Shown: in pieces, positions 19,046 to 33,637 of the stretch
Layout of the letters: each line of letters begins with the position of its first letter
Position numbering within the stretch: the stretch's first letter is position 1
Assembly: GCA_958295645.1 (NCBI GenBank)
Contig: OY282361.1
Coordinates: forward strand, 2,446,501 to 2,510,500
Source: Longimicrobiales bacterium
GTDB taxonomy: Bacteria > Gemmatimonadota > Gemmatimonadetes > Longimicrobiales > Gaopeijiaceae
Length of the DNA: 64,000 bases
Direction: 5' to 3'
The notes under the pieces: model-generated
Told to the model about the DNA's origin: nothing
Databases searched by the model: none
What the model saw: the letters and a program-made list of their open reading frames with translations, nothing else
Position numbers and translations under genes: made by a program

Positions 19046-19658
19046 GAACCCTCGCTCCCGTCTTCGCCGCCTTCTGGCCGAACGTAGCGTCCGTCTCGGC
19101 GACGTCGTCCTCTCCAGCGGCCTCCGCTCAGACTACTACATAGACGCTCGCACCACTACGATGTGCGGCGAAGGCCTGCTTCTCACGGGCGAAGTCTGCT
19201 ACGACGCCGTCCGGGCCGCGAACTGGGCGCCCTCGCACGTCGGCGGCCTGACCCTCGGAGCCGACCCCATCGCCTATGCCGTTGCCCTGCACGCCACGCG
19301 CCTGGGCTCGCGCCTGGACGCCTTCGCCGTGCGCAAGGCGAGGAAGACCCACGGCGTGCGCAAGCAGATCGAAGGAGGTCTTCCCCCGGCGGCGCAGGTC
19401 GTGATCGTCGAAGACTCGGTGACCTCCGGCGGCAGCGCGCTTCAGGCCGCAAGCGCCGTCGTCGCGCACGGTTGCCGCATCCTCGGCGTGCTTGCGCTCG
19501 TGGACCGCGGCGAGGGCGGCCGCGAACGCATCGCCCAGGCGGGATACGAACTCCAGGCGGTCTTCGAGGCCTCCGAACTCCTCGAAGAAGCCCGTTCGCT
19601 GGCCCGCGCCGAGCCGGTTCAGTCGACCAACCGAAGCGGCATGACCAAGCACAGGTAG
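19044..19658 (+). CDS. pyrE: orotate phosphoribosyltransferase
   Basis: 204 residues. Catalyses orotate + PRPP to OMP in pyrimidine synthesis. The PRPP motif VVIVEDSVTSGG sits at about 119-130; the N-terminal substrate region LSSGLRSDYYIDAR and the loop KARKTHGVRKQIEG are both present. The ATG at 19044 leaves no leader clear of the divergent lipoprotein gene. The 3' end overlaps the convergent dnaN by 40 bp. Confidence 0.92.
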   Translation: MNPRSRLRRLLAERSVRLGDVVLSSGLRSDYYIDARTTTMCGEGLLLTGEVCYDAVRAANWAPSHVGGLTLGADPIAYAVALHATRLGSRLDAFAVRKARKTHGVRKQIEGGLPPAAQVVIVEDSVTSGGSALQAASAVVAHGCRILGVLALVDRGEGGRERIAQAGYELQAVFEASELLEEARSLARAEPVQSTNRSGMTKHR

Positions 19659-20722
19659 TCCGAGTCGCCGTCGCCCGGCTCGATCGTCGCCGCGCGTTCC
19701 GGCGTCTTGAAGGCCATCTTGACCTCTTCGCTGCCCATCACCTTCAGCACTTCCTGCAGGTAGACGGCGTTGAAGGCGATCTCCAGCGGCTCCCCGGCGT
19801 ACTCCACGTCCAGCTCGTCGTGGGCCTCCCCCAGATCGGGCGTGGTCACGTTCATGCGCACCTGCTCCGCGGCGAAGGAGAGCTTGATCTTGTGCGTCTG
19901 GTCGCTCGTCATCACCCCCATTCGCCGCACGGCGCGCGCCAAATCCTCCCGCGTCGTCCGCGCTACCCGGTCGTTGTCCTTCGGGATCACCTGCTCGTAG
20001 TTGGGGTAGGTGCCTTCGATCAGCCGGGTGTAGACCTCCGTGGCACCCAGCCGGAAGCCCAAGTGGTTGCCGCCCGCGGCCGCCTCGACCTCGTCCTCCG
20101 GATCGGAGAGCCGCTGCACATGGGACAACGCGAGCGGAGGCACGATGAAGTCCTTCCCCTCCGCGCCCCCCGACCCGGCCTTGACGGCCATGCGAGCCAA
20201 CCGGTGCCCGTTCGTCGCCACCATCCGCATCTCGTCCTCCCGCAGCTCCCAGAGCACTCCCATCAGCACAGGCCGACTCTCCTCGTCCGAGACCGCGAAG
20301 GCCGTCTTCTGGATCAACTCGTGAAGCTCCTTGGCGACGACGCTCCATCCCTGGCCAAAGTCGATCTCGGGCAACGCCGGGAATTCCTCGGCGGGAAGGC
20401 CGTTGACCTTGAACTGGCTTCGCCCGCAGTGGATGTTCAGCTGGTCTCCCTGCAGCTGCATGCTCACCGGCGCCTCTCTCATCTCGCGCGCCAGCTCCTC
20501 CAGCTTCTTTCCCGGGACGGTGACCGATCCGGGCGTCTTCACGTCGGCGGGAACCGTGGTGCGCAACCAAAGGTCGAGATCGGTTCCGCTGATCCGCACG
20601 CCCCCGTCCACGCACTCGACGAGGATGTTCGAGAGCACGGGCAGGGAGGTCTTGGCCGGGAGACAGGCGGTCACGGCGGAGAGTGCGCGGTGCAGGTTCT
20701 GGCGGGTGATGGTCAGGTCCAT
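19619..20722 (-). CDS. dnaN: DNA polymerase III beta sliding clamp
   Basis: 367 residues, three clamp domains of about 120 residues each. It forms a ring around DNA that tethers the replicative polymerase. Hallmarks: LHRALSAVTACLPAKTSLPVLSNI at the N-terminus (shown in part), ALPEIDF, RPVLMGVLW, TNGHRLA and the C-terminal LCLVMPLRL. It lies directly beyond the origin from dnaA, the dnaA-oriC-dnaN order known from many bacteria. recF, often next, is absent; pyrE is convergent and overlaps the 3' end. Confidence 0.96.
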   Translation of the reverse strand: MDLTITRQNLHRALSAVTACLPAKTSLPVLSNILVECVDGGVRISGTDLDLWLRTTVPADVKTPGSVTVPGKKLEELAREMREAPVSMQLQGDQLNIHCGRSQFKVNGLPAEEFPALPEIDFGQGWSVVAKELHELIQKTAFAVSDEESRPVLMGVLWELREDEMRMVATNGHRLARMAVKAGSGGAEGKDFIVPPLALSHVQRLSDPEDEVEAAAGGNHLGFRLGATEVYTRLIEGTYPNYEQVIPKDNDRVARTTREDLARAVRRMGVMTSDQTHKIKLSFAAEQVRMNVTTPDLGEAHDELDVEYAGEPLEIAFNAVYLQEVLKVMGSEEVKMAFKTPERAATIEPGDGDSDYLCLVMPLRLVD

Positions 20723-21039
20723 GAGACGGTGGGGAAGAGGGGGCGTGTGGAGAGCGATTCTTGCGATGTGGCGCCGATCAATAAGTAATAGGTAAGAAAA
20801 GAATCGTCATCATAGGGGATGTGGAAAACCGGGAAAACCGTTGCCGGATCCCCAAGACGGCCAAGCCGGGCCAAGGAATCCGGCGGCCCGCGCCGTTGTG
20901 GAAAACATGGGGAAGAATTGTGGAAAACCGAAGTGCCGCCGCCCGGCTTGTGGAAAACCCGGGCTTTTTCCACGGTTTCCACAGGTTTTCCACAATCGGC
21001 TGTCGAAAACTCCGGGTTCGCGCTCCGGGGACCGACCGT
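20723..21039. other. oriC: chromosomal origin of replication (oriC)
   Basis: The 317-bp gap between dnaA and dnaN holds no gene but seven DnaA-box-like sites built on TTGTGGAAAAC: forward at 20819-20829, 20896-20906, 20918-20928 and 20948-20958, reverse at 20965-20973, 20976-20983 and 20985-20995. Next to the first box, on the dnaN side, lies an AT-rich stretch at about 20780-20818 (ATAAGTAATAGGTAAGAAAA), unusual in this GC-rich DNA and a good candidate for the unwinding element. Box cluster then AT-rich element then dnaN is the same order as in Bacillus oriC. Confidence 0.92.
20780..20818. promoter_or_regulatory. AT-rich putative DNA unwinding element
   Basis: This is the most AT-rich patch of the origin region, beside the DnaA box at 20819. 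It contains TAA/TAG triplets separated by single G bases, loosely similar to DnaA-trio repeats, though the phasing is imperfect. Strand opening here is inferred from position and composition. Confidence 0.6.
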
Positions 21040-26019: not shown

Positions 26020-27447
26020 GTGCACGAGCCGGACGGGCGACCGGACACCATCGTAGCCGTGGCGACGCCTCCGGGGATCGGCGCAACCGCCTTGGTTCGT
26101 CTCTCCGGCCCCGGCGCGGCGGCCGTCTTGCACGGCCTGCTCCAGGGGCCGAAGAACAACGGTCCGGAGCCGTCGGCGCACCCGGCGGGCGACGTGGCGG
26201 CCCGGAACGCACAGGCCGCCGACCTGCCGGGGCGGGCAAGCCGGTTGCGCACGCTCGTCGACCCCGTTTCGGGCGAAGTGCTGGACCAGGCCCTGGTCGC
26301 TTTCCTTGAAGGCCCGGCCAGCTACACCGGCGAGGACATGGCCGAGATCAGCACGCACGGAGGGCGCCTGATCCCCGCGAGCGTCCTGGAAGCCTGCACC
26401 ATCCTGGGCGCCCGGATCGCCCGGCCGGGGGAGTTCACGCAAAGGGCCTATCTCAACGGCAAGCTCGACCTCGCCCAGGCCGAGGCCGTGGCCGGCGTCG
26501 TCTCGGCCAAGTCCGAGAAGGGGCGGCTCGTGGCGCTGCACCAGCTGGAACGAGGCTTGAGCGCGCGGATCGCTTCGCTTCGCGGACGCCTGACCGGCTT
26601 GGCCGCCATGCTGGTGCACCACATCGACTTTCCCGAAGAAAGCGACGCGCCGGCGTCCTTGGAGCGCATCGCCGAAGAGGCGCGCGCGGTGGCGGGCGAG
26701 ATTGGCCGGCTGCTGGCGACGGCGCCTGCGGGCGAGCTGCTGCGAGCGGGCGCCGTGATCGTCCTGGCGGGCCGTCCCAATTCCGGCAAGTCCAGTCTCT
26801 TCAACGCTTTGCTGGGTTCCGAGCGGGCGCTCGTGTCCACCGAGGCGGGGACAACTCGCGACGCGATCGAGGCGGTGGTGTCCATCGAGGGACTGCCTTT
26901 CCGGCTGATCGACACGGCGGGCCTTCGAGAGGCCGAAGGCCACGTCGAGCGAATGGGCGTCGAGGTGGCGCGGCGGCGGCTGGCCGCGGCGGACGCGGTG
27001 CTGCACTGCAGGGAAGCGGGGAGCGCCATGGGGTGCGAGGAGGAGGCGTTTCTGGGGGACTTGGCCGCGCCGGTCGTCGCCGTGCGCACCAAGTGGGACT
27101 TGGCGAGCGGCTCGGAGCCTCCCGGGCCGGGCGAGATCCCGGTGTCGGCGGTGCGTGGGGACGGGCTCGCGGATCTGAAGCAGGCCTTGGCCCGCTTGGT
27201 GTTCGGAGGCGTCGTGGAGAACCGCAACGAGGTGCCCGTCGTCACGACGCGCCGCCAAGCCGGCTGCTTGGCGCAGGCGCAAGAGGAGATCGAGGCCTTC
27301 GCCCGGGGCCTGGACGAGGGGTTGCCGCCCGAGGTGGGCTCGGCGCACGTGAAGTCGGCCGAGACGGCGCTCGAGGAGATTCTGGGCGTGATCTCGCCGG
27401 AGGACGTGCTGGACCGGGTGTTCAGCGACTTCTGCGTCGGCAAGTGA
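26020..27447 (+). CDS. mnmE: tRNA uridine-5-carboxymethylaminomethyl(34) synthesis GTPase MnmE
   Basis: 475 residues, GTG start. With MnmG it modifies the wobble uridine of several tRNAs. The N-terminal tetrahydrofolate-binding domain ([20 protein letters not shown]), a helical domain split by the G domain, P-loop [11 protein letters not shown], switch region [17 protein letters not shown] and the C-terminal catalytic FCVGK (FCIGK in most relatives) are all present. The usual NKxD is replaced by RTKWD. One base of overlap with mnmG (TGATG). Confidence 0.95.
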
Positions 27448-29336
27448 TGAGGCTTCGCTACGGTGTCGTGGTGGTGGGCGGCGGCCATGCGGGGGCGGAA
27501 GCGGCGGCCGCCTCCGCGAGGCTGGGCGCCAAGACCGTGCTGGTGACGCCCGACCTGAGTCGAATAGGCCAGATGAGCTGCAATCCGGCCATCGGCGGCG
27601 TGGCGAAAGGGACCGTTGCGCGCGAAGTGGGGGCCTTGGGCGGCGTCATGGCGCCTGCGACGGACGCTTCCCGCATACACTTCCGCATGTTGAACCGCTC
27701 GAAGGGACCGGCCGTCTGGGGTCCGCGGGCGCAGTGCGACCGCGCCTTATACCCGCTGGCGGTACGGCGCATCCTCGACGGCCTGGACAATCTGGACCTC
27801 TTCCAGGAGATGGCGACCGAGCTGCGCTTGGACGGCGAGTCCTGCTTGGTGGCGACGCGCGGCGGGGTCTCGTTCGAAGGCAAGGCGGCGGTGGTGACCG
27901 CCGGCACCTTCCTGCGCGGCCGGATTCACGTGGGCGGGTCCGCAGCGCACGGAGCGGGCCGGGCCGGCGAAGCGCCCTCCGTCGGCTTGGCCGAGGCGCT
28001 GGAGGCAAGGGGCCTGGAAGTCGCTCGGTTCAAGACCGGCACGCCTCCGCGGATCGACGGCCGGACCGTGGACTTCGGCCGTTGCGAACGCCAGGAGGGG
28101 GATCGCGAGGCCCAGGCGTTCTCCTGCTACAGTCGCGAGGACACGCCCGAGCAGCGCGCCTGCTGGATCACGTGGACGGGCGCCGCGCTGGCCGAGATCG
28201 TCGGCCGCAATCTGCAACGGAGCGCCCTCTACGGCGGGGAGATCGGCGGCCGGGGACCGCGCTATTGCCCGTCCATCGAAGACAAGATCGTGCGCTTTCC
28301 GAAGACGCCGAGGCACCAGGTGTTTCTGGAGCCGGAAGGACTCGGCACCCACGAACTCTACGTCAACGGCCTGTCCACGTCGTTGCCGCCGGAGGTGCAG
28401 CTCGAATGCTTGCGCACCGTGCCGGGGCTGGAGGACGCGAAGATGACCAGGGCCGGCTACGCGATCGAATACGACTACTTTCCGCCCCGCCAGCTGCGCC
28501 ACACGCTGGAGGTCAGGTCGTTGCCGGGACTCTATTTCGCCGGGCAGATCAACGGAACCACCGGGTACGAGGAGGCTGCGGGCCAGGGCCTCGTGGCGGG
28601 AGCCAACGCCGCGTTGGCGGTGCAGGGCCGACCGCCCTTCGTGCTGGAGCGCGACCAAGCCTACATCGGAGTGCTCGTGGACGACTTGGTGACCAAGGGG
28701 GTGGACGAGCCGTACCGCCTGTTCACCTCCCGCGCGGAGTTTCGCCTGTTGCTCCGGCAGGACAACGCGCCCGGACGACTGGGGCCGCTGGCCCGCGATC
28801 TGGGCCTGCTGACGCCGAATCAAGTGCAGGCCCTCGGCGAACGGCTGGCCGAGGAATCGCGTGCCAGGGCTTGGTTCCGGGACACGCGGCTGTCCCCGGA
28901 CAGCGCCAATCGCGCGTTGCGGGCGGCCAAGTCCTCGCCGGTCACGGAGCGGGTACGAGCGCGGGAGCTTCTCCGGCGTCCGGGGGTGACGGCGCGAGCG
29001 CTCGTGGAGTCGGCGCCCGAAGGCAGTCCGAGGTTCGACACGGACGTTCTGGCCACCGTCGAGGTGGACGAGAAGTACGAAGGCTACGTGCGGAGGGAGA
29101 CGGAGCGGGCCGAAAGGCTACGTGCGATGGCCGAATTCGCCATCCCCGAAGACGTGCCCTACGCCGGCCTGGTCACGTTGTCCCACGAGGCTAGAGAGAG
29201 CTTGGCGCGTGTGCGGCCAGCGACGTTGGCCCAAGCGGGCCGCGTTCCCGGCGTGTCGCCGGCCGACCTGCAGAACCTCGTGATGGAGATACGCCGCCTC
29301 AAGGCCAGACAGGCTCCGGAGTCGCTTCCGGCTTGA
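27447..29336 (+). CDS. mnmG: tRNA uridine-5-carboxymethylaminomethyl(34) synthesis enzyme MnmG
   Basis: 629-residue FAD enzyme, partner of MnmE. The FAD motif is [14 protein letters not shown]; then [13 protein letters not shown], the family signature [15 protein letters not shown] and [12 protein letters not shown]. The C-terminal helical domain binds MnmE and tRNA. The ATG at 27447 overlaps the mnmE stop. In many genomes rsmG (gidB) follows; here a 470-bp non-coding stretch with parS sites follows instead. Confidence 0.96.
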
Positions 29337-29408: not shown

Positions 29409-29424
29409 TGTTTCACGTGGAACA
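29409..29424. promoter_or_regulatory. parS centromere site 1
   Basis: TGTTTCACGTGGAACA differs at one base from the bacterial parS palindrome. ParB would bind here and spread; ParA then segregates the origin. Confidence 0.92.
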
Positions 29425-29550
29425 CGAAGCGAAGGCGCGGCCTGCCAGCCGAAGAACCGGCGGATCCTAGCCCGGCATCGCCTCGTCGTCGGCCACGCGG
29501 ACGTCGGCCGCGTCGCGAACGGCCGACCCCCGGACGGTCTCATTCCGGCG

Positions 29551-29566
29551 TGTTTCACGTGAAACA
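29551..29566. promoter_or_regulatory. parS centromere site 2
   Basis: TGTTTCACGTGAAACA is the perfect consensus parS palindrome, 142 bp from site 1 and about 240 bp before parA. Confidence 0.96.
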
Positions 29567-29806
29567 CAACCTCCGACCGACGAGCCCATGGCATGTCCCC
29601 GGCGCATGTCGTAGACGAGATCGCCCGGCAGACCGCGGAAGCACCGCAGACCGCCTTCCAGCCCCCGCGCGTCGTCTGGTTCGCGCGCCCGGCATCCTAG
29701 GCGGCGCCGAACGGACCCTATACCTTGTGGAGCGGTCCACGTCGCCCGGAGCGTCCCCCGGGCGAAGGCCGCATCCCATCTCTCTCCTTCAAGCAAGGCT
29801 TCTCCG

Positions 29807-30589
29807 GTGCGGATCATCGCAATCGCGAACCAAAAAGGCGGCGTGGGCAAGACCACGACGGCCGTGAACTTGAGTTCGGCCTTGGCGCGGGAGGGCGCCC
29901 GCGTGCTGTTGGTGGACATTGATCCGCAGGGCAACGCCTCCAGCGGCCTGGGGATCGTCGAGCGGGACAACTTGGCCACGATCTACGACGTGCTGGTTCG
30001 GGGCCTTCCCGTCTACCGGGCGATCCACCGCCAGGTCGTCCCCGCCGATCTCGAGGTGGTTCCCGCCAATCGCGACTTGGTGGGCGCGGAACTCGAGCTG
30101 GTGGGGGTGCGCGACCGCGAGACGATTCTCCGAGAAGCGCTCGCGCCGGTCGTGGAGGACTACGCCTTCGTCATCATCGACTGTCCGCCCTCTCTCGGCC
30201 TGCTCACGCTGAACGCCCTTTCGGCGGCCGACTCGCTCATCGTTCCCATCCAGTGCGAGTATTACGCGCTGGAAGGCCTGGCCCAGCTCATGAGCACGAT
30301 CGGCTTGGTTCGGCGGGGCCTCAATCCCGGCTTGGACGTCGAAGGAGTCCTGCTGACGATGTACGACCGACGCCTCAACCTCTCGCGAGAGATCGCGTCC
30401 GAAGCGAAGAAGTACTTCGACGTGTTCCAGACGGTCATCCCCCGCAACGTGAGCGTGGCGGAGGCGCCGTCGTTCGGACAGGCCGTGCTCGACTACGATC
30501 CCTCCTCGGCCGGGTCGCAACAGTACGCCGCCTTGGCCCGCGAACTGACGGCCCGCACGTCGGCGCCGGCCCCGGGAGAGCGAGCATGA
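29807..30589 (+). CDS. parA: chromosome partitioning ATPase ParA (Soj)
   Basis: 260 residues, GTG start. Deviant Walker A KGGVGKT (residues 10-16), LLVDIDPQGNAS, IIDCPPSLG and the C-terminal NVSVAEAPSFGQAVLDYDP. It lacks the N-terminal DNA-binding extension of plasmid ParA, so it is the short chromosomal type. It drives origin segregation with ParB-parS complexes. parB overlaps its stop as ATGA. Confidence 0.95.
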   Translation: MRIIAIANQKGGVGKTTTAVNLSSALAREGARVLLVDIDPQGNASSGLGIVERDNLATIYDVLVRGLPVYRAIHRQVVPADLEVVPANRDLVGAELELVGVRDRETILREALAPVVEDYAFVIIDCPPSLGLLTLNALSAADSLIVPIQCEYYALEGLAQLMSTIGLVRRGLNPGLDVEGVLLTMYDRRLNLSREIASEAKKYFDVFQTVIPRNVSVAEAPSFGQAVLDYDPSSAGSQQYAALARELTARTSAPAPGERA

Positions 30590-31491
30590 GCCGGCCCGAC
30601 CGCCTCGGCCGGGGCATCGGCGCGCTGATCGGCGAGTACATGGACGACGCGAGCCCCGCGGGAGGAGGAGCCGACGCGCGCAGCCTTCCGGTCGAGGCCA
30701 TCGCTCCGAATCCGTATCAGCCCCGGGTGGACTTCAAGGCGGAAGAGCTGTCGGAGCTGGCGGCGTCGATCAAGGAAAACGGCCTGATTCAGCCGATCGT
30801 CGTCAGGGGTTCGGCGGCCGCGCGGCAGTACGAACTGGTCGCGGGCGAGCGCAGGCTACGGGCCGTCAAGCAGTTGGGCTGGACGGAGGTGACGGCCATC
30901 GTCCGCCGCGTCGACGACCGCACGTTGCTGGTGCTGGCCTTGGTCGAAAACATCCAGCGGCAGGATCTGGGGCCGATCGACGAAGCCAAGGGATACGAAG
31001 CCTTGCGCGACCAGTTCGGCCTGACCCAAGCCGAAATCGCCGAGACCGTGGGCAAGAGCCGATCGGCCGTGGCCAACACGCTGCGCCTGCTGGGGTTGCC
31101 TCCGCCCGTGAGGCGAATGGTCGAGGAAGGGGCGCTCTCGAAGGGACATGCGCGTGCGCTTCTCGCGGTCGCCGACGCGGGGCAGGCCGAAGCTCTGGCG
31201 CGCCGGGCCGTGAACGAGGATTGGACGGTTCGGGAAACGGAAGAACGGGTGCGCCAGGCCGCCGGCAAGGGCGAGAGGCCGGAGGGGAAGGGGCCACGCG
31301 CGAAGCCGCGTAGGGATCCGGCGGTCTCCATGCTCGAGGAAGCCTTGGCCGAGCACGTCGGAACCCGCGTGGCGATTCGCTGGAAGGGCCGTGGCCGCGG
31401 CGACGTTCGCATCCGGTTCCACGATGCCGAAGACTTGGAACGCGTCTTCGAGGCGCTCACGGGGAAAACGGCTCGCGATGTGCTGGACTGA
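30586..31491 (+). CDS. parB: chromosome partitioning protein ParB (Spo0J)
   Basis: 301 residues. The N-terminal CTPase region has NPYQPR and the CTP/spreading motif GERRLRA (about 87-93), then ALVENIQRQDLGPIDEAKGY. The helix-turn-helix LTQAEIAETVGKSRSAVANT reads parS. A charged linker of about 40 residues separates the C-terminal dimerisation domain. The N-terminal GRGIGALIGEYM matches the ParA-stimulating peptide region. Two parS sites lie just upstream. Confidence 0.95.
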   Translation: MSRPDRLGRGIGALIGEYMDDASPAGGGADARSLPVEAIAPNPYQPRVDFKAEELSELAASIKENGLIQPIVVRGSAAARQYELVAGERRLRAVKQLGWTEVTAIVRRVDDRTLLVLALVENIQRQDLGPIDEAKGYEALRDQFGLTQAEIAETVGKSRSAVANTLRLLGLPPPVRRMVEEGALSKGHARALLAVADAGQAEALARRAVNEDWTVRETEERVRQAAGKGERPEGKGPRAKPRRDPAVSMLEEALAEHVGTRVAIRWKGRGRGDVRIRFHDAEDLERVFEALTGKTARDVLD

Positions 31492-31530
31492 CCCGGCGAG
31501 GGCGTCGGCCGGGGGAGAGGCGCGCAGACG

Positions 31531-32301
31531 GTGAGCGGGCCCGGGCGGCGACGGCGAATGTCGGTCGTCTTCGTGCCGGCCGGCGACGGGCGGACTCGCA
31601 CCGTGGAGATGTCGTACCGCCGGTTGCGCCTGCTGGCTGTGGCGGTTGCGCTGGCGGCCGCGGCTCTGGTGGCTCTGGTGGCGAGCTGGTGGCCGCTGTA
31701 CCGGCGGGCCTCGCACGCGGAGGCGTTGGCAAGGCAACTGGACTCGCTCGTCGCCCTCCAGCCCGAGCTGAGCGCGCTGGCGGAGCATCTCGTCGAACTT
31801 GAACGGCGACAAGAGCAGTTTCGCCTTTTGTTCGGCCAAGTGGAGCCGCCGGAAGTTCGCCTCTGGCAGTTGTCCTCGGCCCCGGCGCAAGGCGAACCCG
31901 TACCGGCCGACGAGGCCGAGACCACCCCGTCGGCTTGGCCGCTGGCGACCGCCGGATTCGTGACGCAGTCCCTTCTCGAAGGATCCGAAGGCGATCATCC
32001 GGGCATCGACATCGCGGTGCCGACCGACTCGTACATTCGGGCCGCCGGCGCCGGCGAAGTGCTCGAAGCCGCCGAAGACTCCGTGTATGGACTATTCGTC
32101 CGGATCGATCACGGAGACGGCTTTCAGAGCCTGTACGGACATGCCTCCGAGCTGGTGATCGAGAGCGGGATGCAGGTGCGGCGGGGCGAAGTGATCGCGA
32201 TGTCGGGCTCGACCGGGCGGTCCACGGCGGCCCATCTTCACTTCGAGATACTGAAGGACGGACGCCCCGTCGATCCGTTGACCCTGGTTGTGCCGCCCTG
32301 A
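31531..32301 (+). CDS. membrane-anchored M23 family metallopeptidase
   Basis: 256 residues, GTG start. A short cytoplasmic part, one membrane segment at about 34-55, a coiled-coil stalk (about 60-100) and a LytM domain. Zinc ligands are present: His156 and Asp160 in HPGIDIA and His237 in HLHFE, with catalytic His235; LYGHAS is also intact, so it should be an active peptidoglycan endopeptidase. It is followed 32 bp later by a bactofilin gene. M23-bactofilin pairs are known to shape cells in several phyla, the bactofilin localising the hydrolase. Confidence 0.88.
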   Translation: MSGPGRRRRMSVVFVPAGDGRTRTVEMSYRRLRLLAVAVALAAAALVALVASWWPLYRRASHAEALARQLDSLVALQPELSALAEHLVELERRQEQFRLLFGQVEPPEVRLWQLSSAPAQGEPVPADEAETTPSAWPLATAGFVTQSLLEGSEGDHPGIDIAVPTDSYIRAAGAGEVLEAAEDSVYGLFVRIDHGDGFQSLYGHASELVIESGMQVRRGEVIAMSGSTGRSTAAHLHFEILKDGRPVDPLTLVVPP

Positions 32302-32333
32302 CCGGCGGACGGAAAGAACGAAAGAACGAGACC

Positions 32334-32816
32334 ATGCCTAGAAGTCGTTTCAACAAGGAACCCGTGGAGGATCGAGTCATTTCCATCGTCGGGCCGGGGA
32401 TGACCGTGGTGGGGGACTGCAAGTCGTCGGGATCGATTCGCGTCGAAGGCTCGGTCGACGGCACGCTCCAATCCGACAAGTCGGTCGTGATCGGCAAGGA
32501 CGCCCGAGTCGACGGAGAGGTGACGAGCAAGGAGGGCGTGATAGCGGGCTCGGTCAGCGGCGTGGTGCGCGTCGATGGACGGCTGGAGGTGCACGCCACG
32601 GGCGCGATCGACGGCGAAGTGCACGCGGGCCGCCTCCAGCTGGAGGAAGGCGGCAAGATGAACGGAATCGTCAAAGTCGGACGCATGGAGCTGTTGCCGG
32701 CGCCGCGCACGGAGCGGGAGGGGCAAAAGCGGCTCGCGGGCGCCAAGGCCGACAGGATCGGCGAGCTGCCGTCGCCCGTCGGGATGCAGCAGGCGCAGGC
32801 GCCGAGTCGAGGCTGA
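32334..32816 (+). CDS. bactofilin (polymer-forming cytoskeletal protein)
   Basis: 160 residues. The central domain of about 100 residues shows the right-handed beta-helix repeats of bactofilins: SGSIRVEGSVDGTLQSDKSV, IGKDARVDGEVTSKEGVIAG (parts), and DGEVHAGRLQLEEGGKMNG. The N-terminal tail before it is short and the C-terminal tail is basic and disordered. It would self-assemble without nucleotide into membrane-bound filaments. Upstream gene is an M23 peptidase, and parAB lie just before that. Confidence 0.93.
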   Translation: MPRSRFNKEPVEDRVISIVGPGMTVVGDCKSSGSIRVEGSVDGTLQSDKSVVIGKDARVDGEVTSKEGVIAGSVSGVVRVDGRLEVHATGAIDGEVHAGRLQLEEGGKMNGIVKVGRMELLPAPRTEREGQKRLAGAKADRIGELPSPVGMQQAQAPSRG

Positions 32817-33637
32817 CCATCCCACCGACAGCTGGTTCCGAAGCGGCGGCGGTCCCCCTGGCCCAAGTCGTCGCATTCTTGGACGACTACTTGGACGTGG
32901 ACGCGATCCCCGACTACCCGGGCGCGCTGAACGGCCTGCAGGTGGAGGCGCCGGGACCGGTGCGGCGGGTGGCGGTTGCGGTGGACGCGAGCACCGCGGT
33001 GATCCGCGAGGCCGCGGGACGGGCCGATTTGATCGTCGTGCACCACGGCCTGTTCTGGGGAGGCCCCGAGCGCCTCGTCGGCTATCGGTTCGAGCGAATT
33101 CGCGCGCTGGTCGAGAACCGCACCGCCCTCTACAGCAGTCACCTGCCCCTGGACGCGCACCCGGAAGTGGGCAACGCAGCCGTCCTGGCGCGGCGCCTGG
33201 GCCTGGAGGAGCTTGCTCCCTTCGGCAGCTACGAGGGGACTCCGGTCGGCTGGAAGGGGCGCCTCGGCGTCTCCCCCGGCGGTTCCCGGTCCTCGTCGGC
33301 GGGCCTGGCTGCGGCGGAGTTGGCCGAACGGCTCTCCCGTCTGACGGGCGCCGCCGTGCAGACGCTTCCGGGCGGCGCCGAGAGGATTCGGCGCGCTGCC
33401 GTCGTGACGGGCGCGGGAGCGTCGACCCTTCGGGAGGCCGCCGCCCTGGGCCTGGACGCCCTCGTGACCGGCGAGGCCCAGCATCATCACGCGATCGAAG
33501 CGGCGGAACTCGGCCTCTCGATCCTTCTCGGGGGGCACTACGCCACCGAGACCTGGGGCGTCAAGGCCGTGGCCGAGTTGCTCCGAGACCGCTTCGGGAC
33601 CGAGACTTGGTTCATCGACGCGCCGACCGGCCTGTAG
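32813..33637 (+). CDS. Nif3-like dinuclear metal centre protein (CTG start proposed)
   Basis: Nif3/YbgI/DUF34 family; about 274 residues from the proposed start, a ring-forming metal protein of unsettled function, suggested as a GTP cyclohydrolase I type 2-like enzyme. Metal-binding motifs: VVHHGLFWGG, YSSHLPLDAHPEVGN and, near the C-terminus, VTGEAQHHHAIEA and LLGGHYATET. The helix PLAQVVAFLDDYLDV that opens this family lies before the first canonical start (TTG 32879). CTG at 32813 overlaps the bactofilin stop as CTGA; CTG at 32858 is another option. Confidence 0.8.
   Translation: MTIPPTAGSEAAAVPLAQVVAFLDDYLDVDAIPDYPGALNGLQVEAPGPVRRVAVAVDASTAVIREAAGRADLIVVHHGLFWGGPERLVGYRFERIRALVENRTALYSSHLPLDAHPEVGNAAVLARRLGLEELAPFGSYEGTPVGWKGRLGVSPGGSRSSSAGLAAAELAERLSRLTGAAVQTLPGGAERIRRAAVVTGAGASTLREAAALGLDALVTGEAQHHHAIEAAELGLSILLGGHYATETWGVKAVAELLRDRFGTETWFIDAPTGL

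Follow-up and report, generated by a model that had tools for sequence, protein, structure and literature searches.

A chromosomal parABS locus in Gemmatimonadota whose gene run also carries a putative bactofilin-LmdC cell-shape module

Genes and sites of the parABS locus

The window considered here, a stretch of 64,000 nucleotides (nt) from a Longimicrobiales bacterium of the Gemmatimonadota (contig OY282361.1, positions 2,446,501 to 2,510,500), contains two parS sites followed by parA, parB, a gene for a membrane-bound M23 peptidase and a bactofilin gene (bac), a series which a preliminary description had placed in one direction and which coordinates and profile matches confirm (Table 1). 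The four genes and the nif3 gene that follows are co-directional on the plus strand, with parA and parB sharing an ATGA overlap and with gaps of 39 nt between parB and the M23 gene, 32 nt between the latter and bac, and 62 nt between bac and nif3.

No other parS site with two mismatches or fewer is found in the 2,885,659-base genome, while chance would provide 0.03 matches with up to three mismatches in the window. Five DnaA-box-like sites (TTTTCCACA, one mismatch each) lie between dnaA and dnaN and coincide with the minimum of the cumulative GC skew, so that this interval is probably oriC and parS lies about 8.4 kb from it. With a ParA ATPase, a three-domain ParB and parS near the origin, the locus has the features of a chromosomal ParABS system. 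As ParB itself is the sole ParB_N match (PF02195) of the genome in a profile search, no PadC-like adapter is visible to this profile, although a PadC too divergent for it would escape.

The protein encoded between parB and bac shows a predicted cytoplasmic β-hairpin (residues ~10-27), a transmembrane helix, a coiled coil up to about residue 101 and an M23 domain at residues 155-249; a start at the alternative ATG would still retain the predicted hairpin. The zinc ligands H156/D160 (HPGID), H204 and H235-L-H237 are invariant across 27 aligned sequences, the window's included, which were hand-chosen among the 73 M23 genes that follow parB in the survey described below. With HPGID, H204 and HLH in place, the protein is probably active, as the preliminary description had supposed. 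Structure prediction, based on a two-sequence alignment (the window's protein and one relative) and poor overall (mean predicted local distance difference test score, pLDDT, 45), is usable for the N-terminal part alone, where strands at residues 10-14 and 23-27 and helices at 29-75 and 77-101 have a pLDDT of ~58-79; from residue 101 onwards pLDDT is below 50 and the M23 domain is not modelled. Hydropathy and prediction fit the N-terminus of LmdC, with hairpin, transmembrane helix and coiled coil in a presumed membrane orientation. Having a domain with HxxxD and HxH and a bactofilin gene adjacent, the protein is, judged by its architecture, an LmdC-type bactofilin client. LmdC is reported to follow the same plan, with an N-terminal peptide that binds the bactofilin BacA with a KD of about 15 µM in Hyphomonas and a hairpin that is required for normal recruitment in Rhodospirillum; changes in the hairpin abolish inner-curve enrichment, and the same source describes bactofilin genes adjoining M23 genes in 226 species (PMC10945521).

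Table 1. Features of the parABS locus and its surroundings in the window
Feature	Position	Strand	Remarks
parS site 1	29409..29424		one mismatch
parS site 2	29551..29566		perfect palindrome
parA	29807..30589	+	GTG start; Walker-type ATPase; AAA_31/CbiA match
parB	30586..31491	+	ParB_N, HTH_ParB and ParB_C (C-terminal dimerisation domain)
LmdC-type bitopic M23 peptidase gene	31531..32301	+	PF01551 match; alternative ATG at 31558
bactofilin gene (bac)	32334..32816	+	PF04519 match, E 7.7e-23
nif3/DUF34	32879..33637	+	unrelated neighbour, linkage control
mnmG	27447..29336	+	upstream of parS (context)
DnaA-box-like sites	20820..20994		cluster of five in dnaA-dnaN interval; probable oriC
dnaA	21043-22359	-	
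dnaN	19622-20722	-	

The bactofilin is the genome's sole match at E 0.001, and six M23 genes were judged present from seven matches. A second one among them (G000:C1:1660390-1660674, locus L002) matches the N-terminal profile weakly (E 2.2e-6), and its partial tail scores 4.1 bits, less than the best shuffled sequence; as the only bactofilin of the genome is at par, it cannot adjoin one.

Distribution across Gemmatimonadota and other phyla

The survey comprised 121 genomes, of which 118 have parB at E 1e-25 (not found in G041, G048 and G090) and at least 109 have a bactofilin match at E 0.001; the analysis covered 118 regions with parB and 40 stretches with further bactofilins outside par, G118:C100 being left out, and bactofilin counts use matches of at least 60 bits. 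After parB, 73 loci bear an M23 gene (including the locus of G040, counted once from contigs L079 and L171), one bears a pseudo-enzyme and 14 a gene that lacks the peptidase domain (G026 assigned by hand after reading its open reading frame, ORF), while 30 have none of these, which together are called tail genes here. With few exceptions the M23 genes encode a short basic tail, two hydrophobic strands, one membrane helix and a coiled-coil-like stretch. Complete ligands were seen in 70 of 73 M23 genes read after parB; the exceptions are a true loss in G032, a broken or frame-split ORF in G083 and a contig-end cut in G119. The order parB-M23-bac is present in all nine families; family f5 has it only in G047 and in G032, where the M23 domain is dead.

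When the contig-cut loci of G081 and G119 are left out, tail gene and bactofilin both follow parB in 83 of 116 informative loci, which answers the question of conservation across the phylum posed with the preliminary description. The two are concordant at par in 110/116 (83 with both, 27 with neither), with bactofilin in 83 of the 86 loci that have a tail gene and in 3 of the 30 that do not; discordant are G051, G098 and G099 (M23 without bac) and G028, G039 and G088 (bac without tail gene). The Fisher p calculated for this association disregards how closely the genomes are related. Such co-retention, along with the LmdC-type architecture, bears out the proposed partnership of bactofilin and M23 protein. 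The 27 loci without the pair, which fall on several branches, all keep parA, and in 20 of them the analysed stretch includes a parS-like site (two mismatches or fewer). Two gene pairs which separate freely in relatives had been named as evidence against a common scaffold; separation does occur in these 27 loci, but it is not free.

The pair is also met away from par. Fourteen genomes have a bactofilin elsewhere and no tail gene at par, and in seven of them an M23 gene carrying this tail adjoins a bactofilin (tail scores 8.5-15.5, vs up to 5.0 in 1050 shuffled sequences); in the remaining seven, no M23 gene was found in the stretch around the bactofilin. This suggests, from gene content, that bactofilin and LmdC-type protein may form a unit of their own. 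Linkage near parB is by itself no evidence of shared function, since the unrelated nif3 persists downstream of parB in 101/118 loci; mnmG lies upstream in 68/118.

Fourteen genomes were called devoid of bactofilin, meaning without a match of at least 60 bits, and among the matches listed five of these have weaker ones (G078 50.7 and 42.8, G018 32.2, G067 29.1, G079 27.9 and G120 23.6 bits), none of which, among the matches listed, is near parB. In all seven sampled genomes of genus g27 (L057, L077, L091, L104, L109, L114, L146) the par locus has neither tail gene nor bactofilin, and no bactofilin match reaches 60 bits, the weak ones in G018 (32 bits) and G067 (29 bits) belonging here. Two genomes of ~2.0 Mb from the window's own family (G108 and G120; L144 and L156) have neither gene at par, where parB is directly followed by nif3. 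Away from par there are bac-M23-bac-bac clusters (L174, L183, L184, L192), in which two or three bactofilin genes surround a single M23 gene with the tail. In families f4 and f5, several loci (L047, L043, L066 and others) have a gene of ~1 kb between bac and nif3, which we take to encode a BMP-like lipoprotein, and an ABC ATPase-like gene 3' of nif3. Locus L308, labelled Gemmatimonadales, has the order bac-M23-parB-parA-mnmG as in the window and, with profiles from Gemmatimonadota loci, the best ParA, ParB and MnmG scores among the matches listed from at least 119 stretches of an 18-base parS scan; among ten named genomes, the one with L308 also had the highest-scoring ParB.

Other phyla were sampled through the best 30 parB loci of 40, 37, 39 and 41 genomes with 1.5-kb flanks, the phyla being named after the titles of the centre metagenome-assembled genomes (MAGs). 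Bactofilin directly follows parB in 17/30 loci (Acidobacteria-MAG phylum), 11/30 (Myxococcales-MAG), 7/30 (Desulfohalobiaceae-MAG) and 0/30 (Kapaibacterium-MAG), and within these flanks no M23 or tail match was found downstream of parB. Occurrence in several phyla makes it probable that the parB-bactofilin order is old; an LmdC-type gene between the two was, in this sample, seen only in Gemmatimonadota. One Acidobacteria M23 protein (L455) matches the tail with 14.9 bits and the N-terminal profile with E 7.8e-12, and no bactofilin was found within the 1.5-kb flanks of its gene.

Loss of the peptidase domain in family f5

Family f5 presents a series from an intact M23 gene (G047) through a pseudo-enzyme (G032), whose M23 domain lacks HxxxD and is judged to have lost the histidine of YxH as well, to 13 complete genes without the domain; in a fourteenth, G081, the gene runs off the contig end and the domain loss is thus unproven. 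The 13 proteins, of 138-275 residues, consist of tail, helix and coiled coil only, and their genes all start at -4 or -1 relative to the parB stop and have bac next. A search at E 1 with filters off showed no M23 match in any of the 14 domain-less loci; one of them (G106) has some 800 nt without gene assignment ahead of bac, after the tail gene. The N-terminal profiles of full and domain-less proteins match at 99.2 % (E 8e-20, 110 columns). In all five pairs compared, divergence is highest at third codon positions (e.g. 43/21/75 in 149 codons), as in real genes.

In a tree of ParA and ParB, two groups with domain-less genes are separated by genomes without the gene, the separating nodes having supports of 0.43 to 0.95, which suggests that the peptidase domain may have been eroded repeatedly. 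Fitch counts on this tree, which includes 114 genomes and several weak nodes, are six changes for the tail gene, nine for bac at par and three for the intact M23 gene. The peptidase as the conserved core at par was also considered and ruled out, as the domain-less copies keep the tail-helix part alone. The pattern points to a putative bactofilin-binding membrane part, and not the hydrolase, as the lasting function in f5.

Interpretation and comparison with known systems

Sequence features, gene order, co-retention and domain loss are the basis on which we consider it fairly probable that the gene run of this chromosomal parABS locus includes a bactofilin-LmdC cell-shape module as well. Bactofilin would polymerise on the inner membrane face, where the cytoplasmic hairpin of the M23 protein would dock on the polymer, while membrane helix and coiled coil may position the M23 domain in the periplasm, and the latter would cleave peptidoglycan cross-links locally in a function for cell shape. 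ParA, ParB and parS would segregate the origin separately from this module, the shared gene run presumably descending from the old parA-parB-bactofilin order. With the lmdC-like gene placed between parB and bac in Gemmatimonadota, often overlapping the parB stop, the module would be expressed, and possibly co-transcribed, with ParB.

Several observations weigh against this view. Against seven bactofilin-adjacent LmdC-like proteins of alphaproteobacteria, the tail HMM does not exceed 3.9 bits and stays under the best shuffle, and hhalign gives 19.6 % for the two tails vs 8.2 % for the best of 30 shuffles; the alphaproteobacterial tails thus appear to resemble that of the window in layout, with a profile similarity that is not significant. 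Most further bactofilins outside par are without an M23 gene in the analysed stretch, hence bactofilins also manage without such a partner, and a bactofilin that is the only one of its genome could serve both shape and ParABS. Persistence across the phylum exceeds what a merely tolerated neighbourhood needs, and in as many as 46 of 72 M23 loci the tail gene begins before parB has ended. This figure is an upper bound, because starts were sought from 30 nt upstream of the parB stop and the first one was used; in the window itself, a gap of 39 nt separates the two genes. In f5, where the peptidase is gone and the tail protein still coupled to parB, hydrolysis is not the whole function.

The latter finding leads to a reading compatible with the module, in which the conserved task of the gene product is that of a membrane anchor for the bactofilin polymer, by way of tail, helix and coiled coil, and the peptidase an addition that f5 discarded. 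It is favoured by the complete domain-less homologues between parB stop and bac, by their N-termini and codon pattern, by the missing M23 matches and by the pseudo-enzyme as an intermediate, and also by Caulobacter, where an overproduced client is reported to replace the membrane peptide of bactofilin and to anchor it (PMC12448750). However, outside f5 the motifs HxxxD and HxH are kept in 69 of 71 M23 genes, the other two (G083, G119) being unreadable, so that hydrolysis is probably under selection there, and ten of 13 bactofilins from domain-less genomes have a membrane-peptide-like start of their own and may need no anchor, vs ten of 68 from M23 genomes, a comparison by a crude pattern and with uncertain gene starts. 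As a general account anchoring is therefore tentative and somewhat unlikely; as a role for the domain-less remnant it is plausible by analogy.

The preliminary description had suggested that origin segregation and wall remodelling share one scaffold, such that a bactofilin polymer would hold both ParABS and the M23 enzyme in place and couple origin position to wall growth. The recurrence of the cluster, the overlap with the parB stop and the single bactofilin of the window genome would agree with this, and the analogy drawn with Myxococcus stands insofar as the bactofilins BacNOP are reported to scaffold ParABS through PadC, from a separate putative operon (PMC5703909). It does not hold for position, as the bactofilin adjoining parAB there is BacM, which is described as co-transcribed with parAB in Myxococcus xanthus and dispensable for segregation (PMC3899335), and whose deletion, in the account of PMC5703909, did not significantly affect the localisation of ParA and ParB, BacM appearing to act exclusively on cell shape. 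BacNOP was for this reason rejected as evidence for a scaffold here, the par-adjacent bactofilin being in the position of BacM, and the best precedent speaks against a link of the bactofilin-LmdC pair to ParABS. With no PadC-like protein seen in the PF02195 search of the window genome, parAB persisting without tail gene and bac in 27/116 loci, and nif3 linked at least as tightly, the shared scaffold is unsupported and appears improbable. A bolder variant, in which the LmdC-type protein is a two-sided membrane client, translated with ParB and docked on bactofilin, that connects the origin complex with the places where the wall grows and whose tether outlived the peptidase in one family, has an equally small chance of being right. 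That parAB, lmdC, bac and nif3 form an origin-proximal conserved block without functional ties is very unlikely as well; persistence of the unrelated nif3 and mnmG would be in line with it, but nearly all informative loci have either both tail gene and bac or neither of them, and tail-bearing M23 genes accompany bactofilins away from par in seven genomes.

Taken as a bactofilin-LmdC module, the gene pair has been placed in the chromosome-segregation gene run across much of Gemmatimonadota, and the relatives, all with parAB, present a peptidase that looks active, a pseudo-enzyme, a remnant without the domain, a module located elsewhere or none at par. They amount to a natural experiment, which lets one ask which part of LmdC is needed by bactofilin and if there is any link between segregation and wall growth. 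A further lesson is one of caution, as a bactofilin beside parB is no proof of ParABS scaffolding. What is new is the gradation, within the parAB gene run, from an enzyme that looks active to a client without the domain. In the literature searched on bactofilin, including Gemmatimonadota, no report of a parAB-LmdC-bactofilin cluster was found, though the 226-species list of PMC10945521 may include it.

Among known systems, BacA-LmdC of Hyphomonas neptunium and Rhodospirillum rubrum is alike in that a bactofilin gene adjoins one for a bitopic M23 protein with hairpin, transmembrane helix, coiled coil and intact zinc ligands, tail similarity being one of layout and not significant by profile; unlike it, the Gemmatimonadota module sits in the parAB gene run and one family is without the peptidase domain. 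The parA-parB-bacM operon of M. xanthus shares a bactofilin downstream of parB in the same direction, with bacM immediately following parAB, whereas the window has the LmdC-type gene in between. BacNOP-PadC of M. xanthus likewise brings bactofilin and ParABS together in one cell, but several bactofilins are encoded with padC in a cluster apart from parAB, while the window genome has one bactofilin, adjoining parAB, and shows no second ParB_N protein. Csd2 of Helicobacter pylori retains an M23-like domain, which is altogether absent in the domain-less proteins of f5, and for Csd1, Csd2 and CcmA we know of no link to parAB. The H. pylori system is nevertheless alike in combining, as reported, a bactofilin (CcmA), an M23 peptidase and a homologue of the latter that is no enzyme (PMC9507126).

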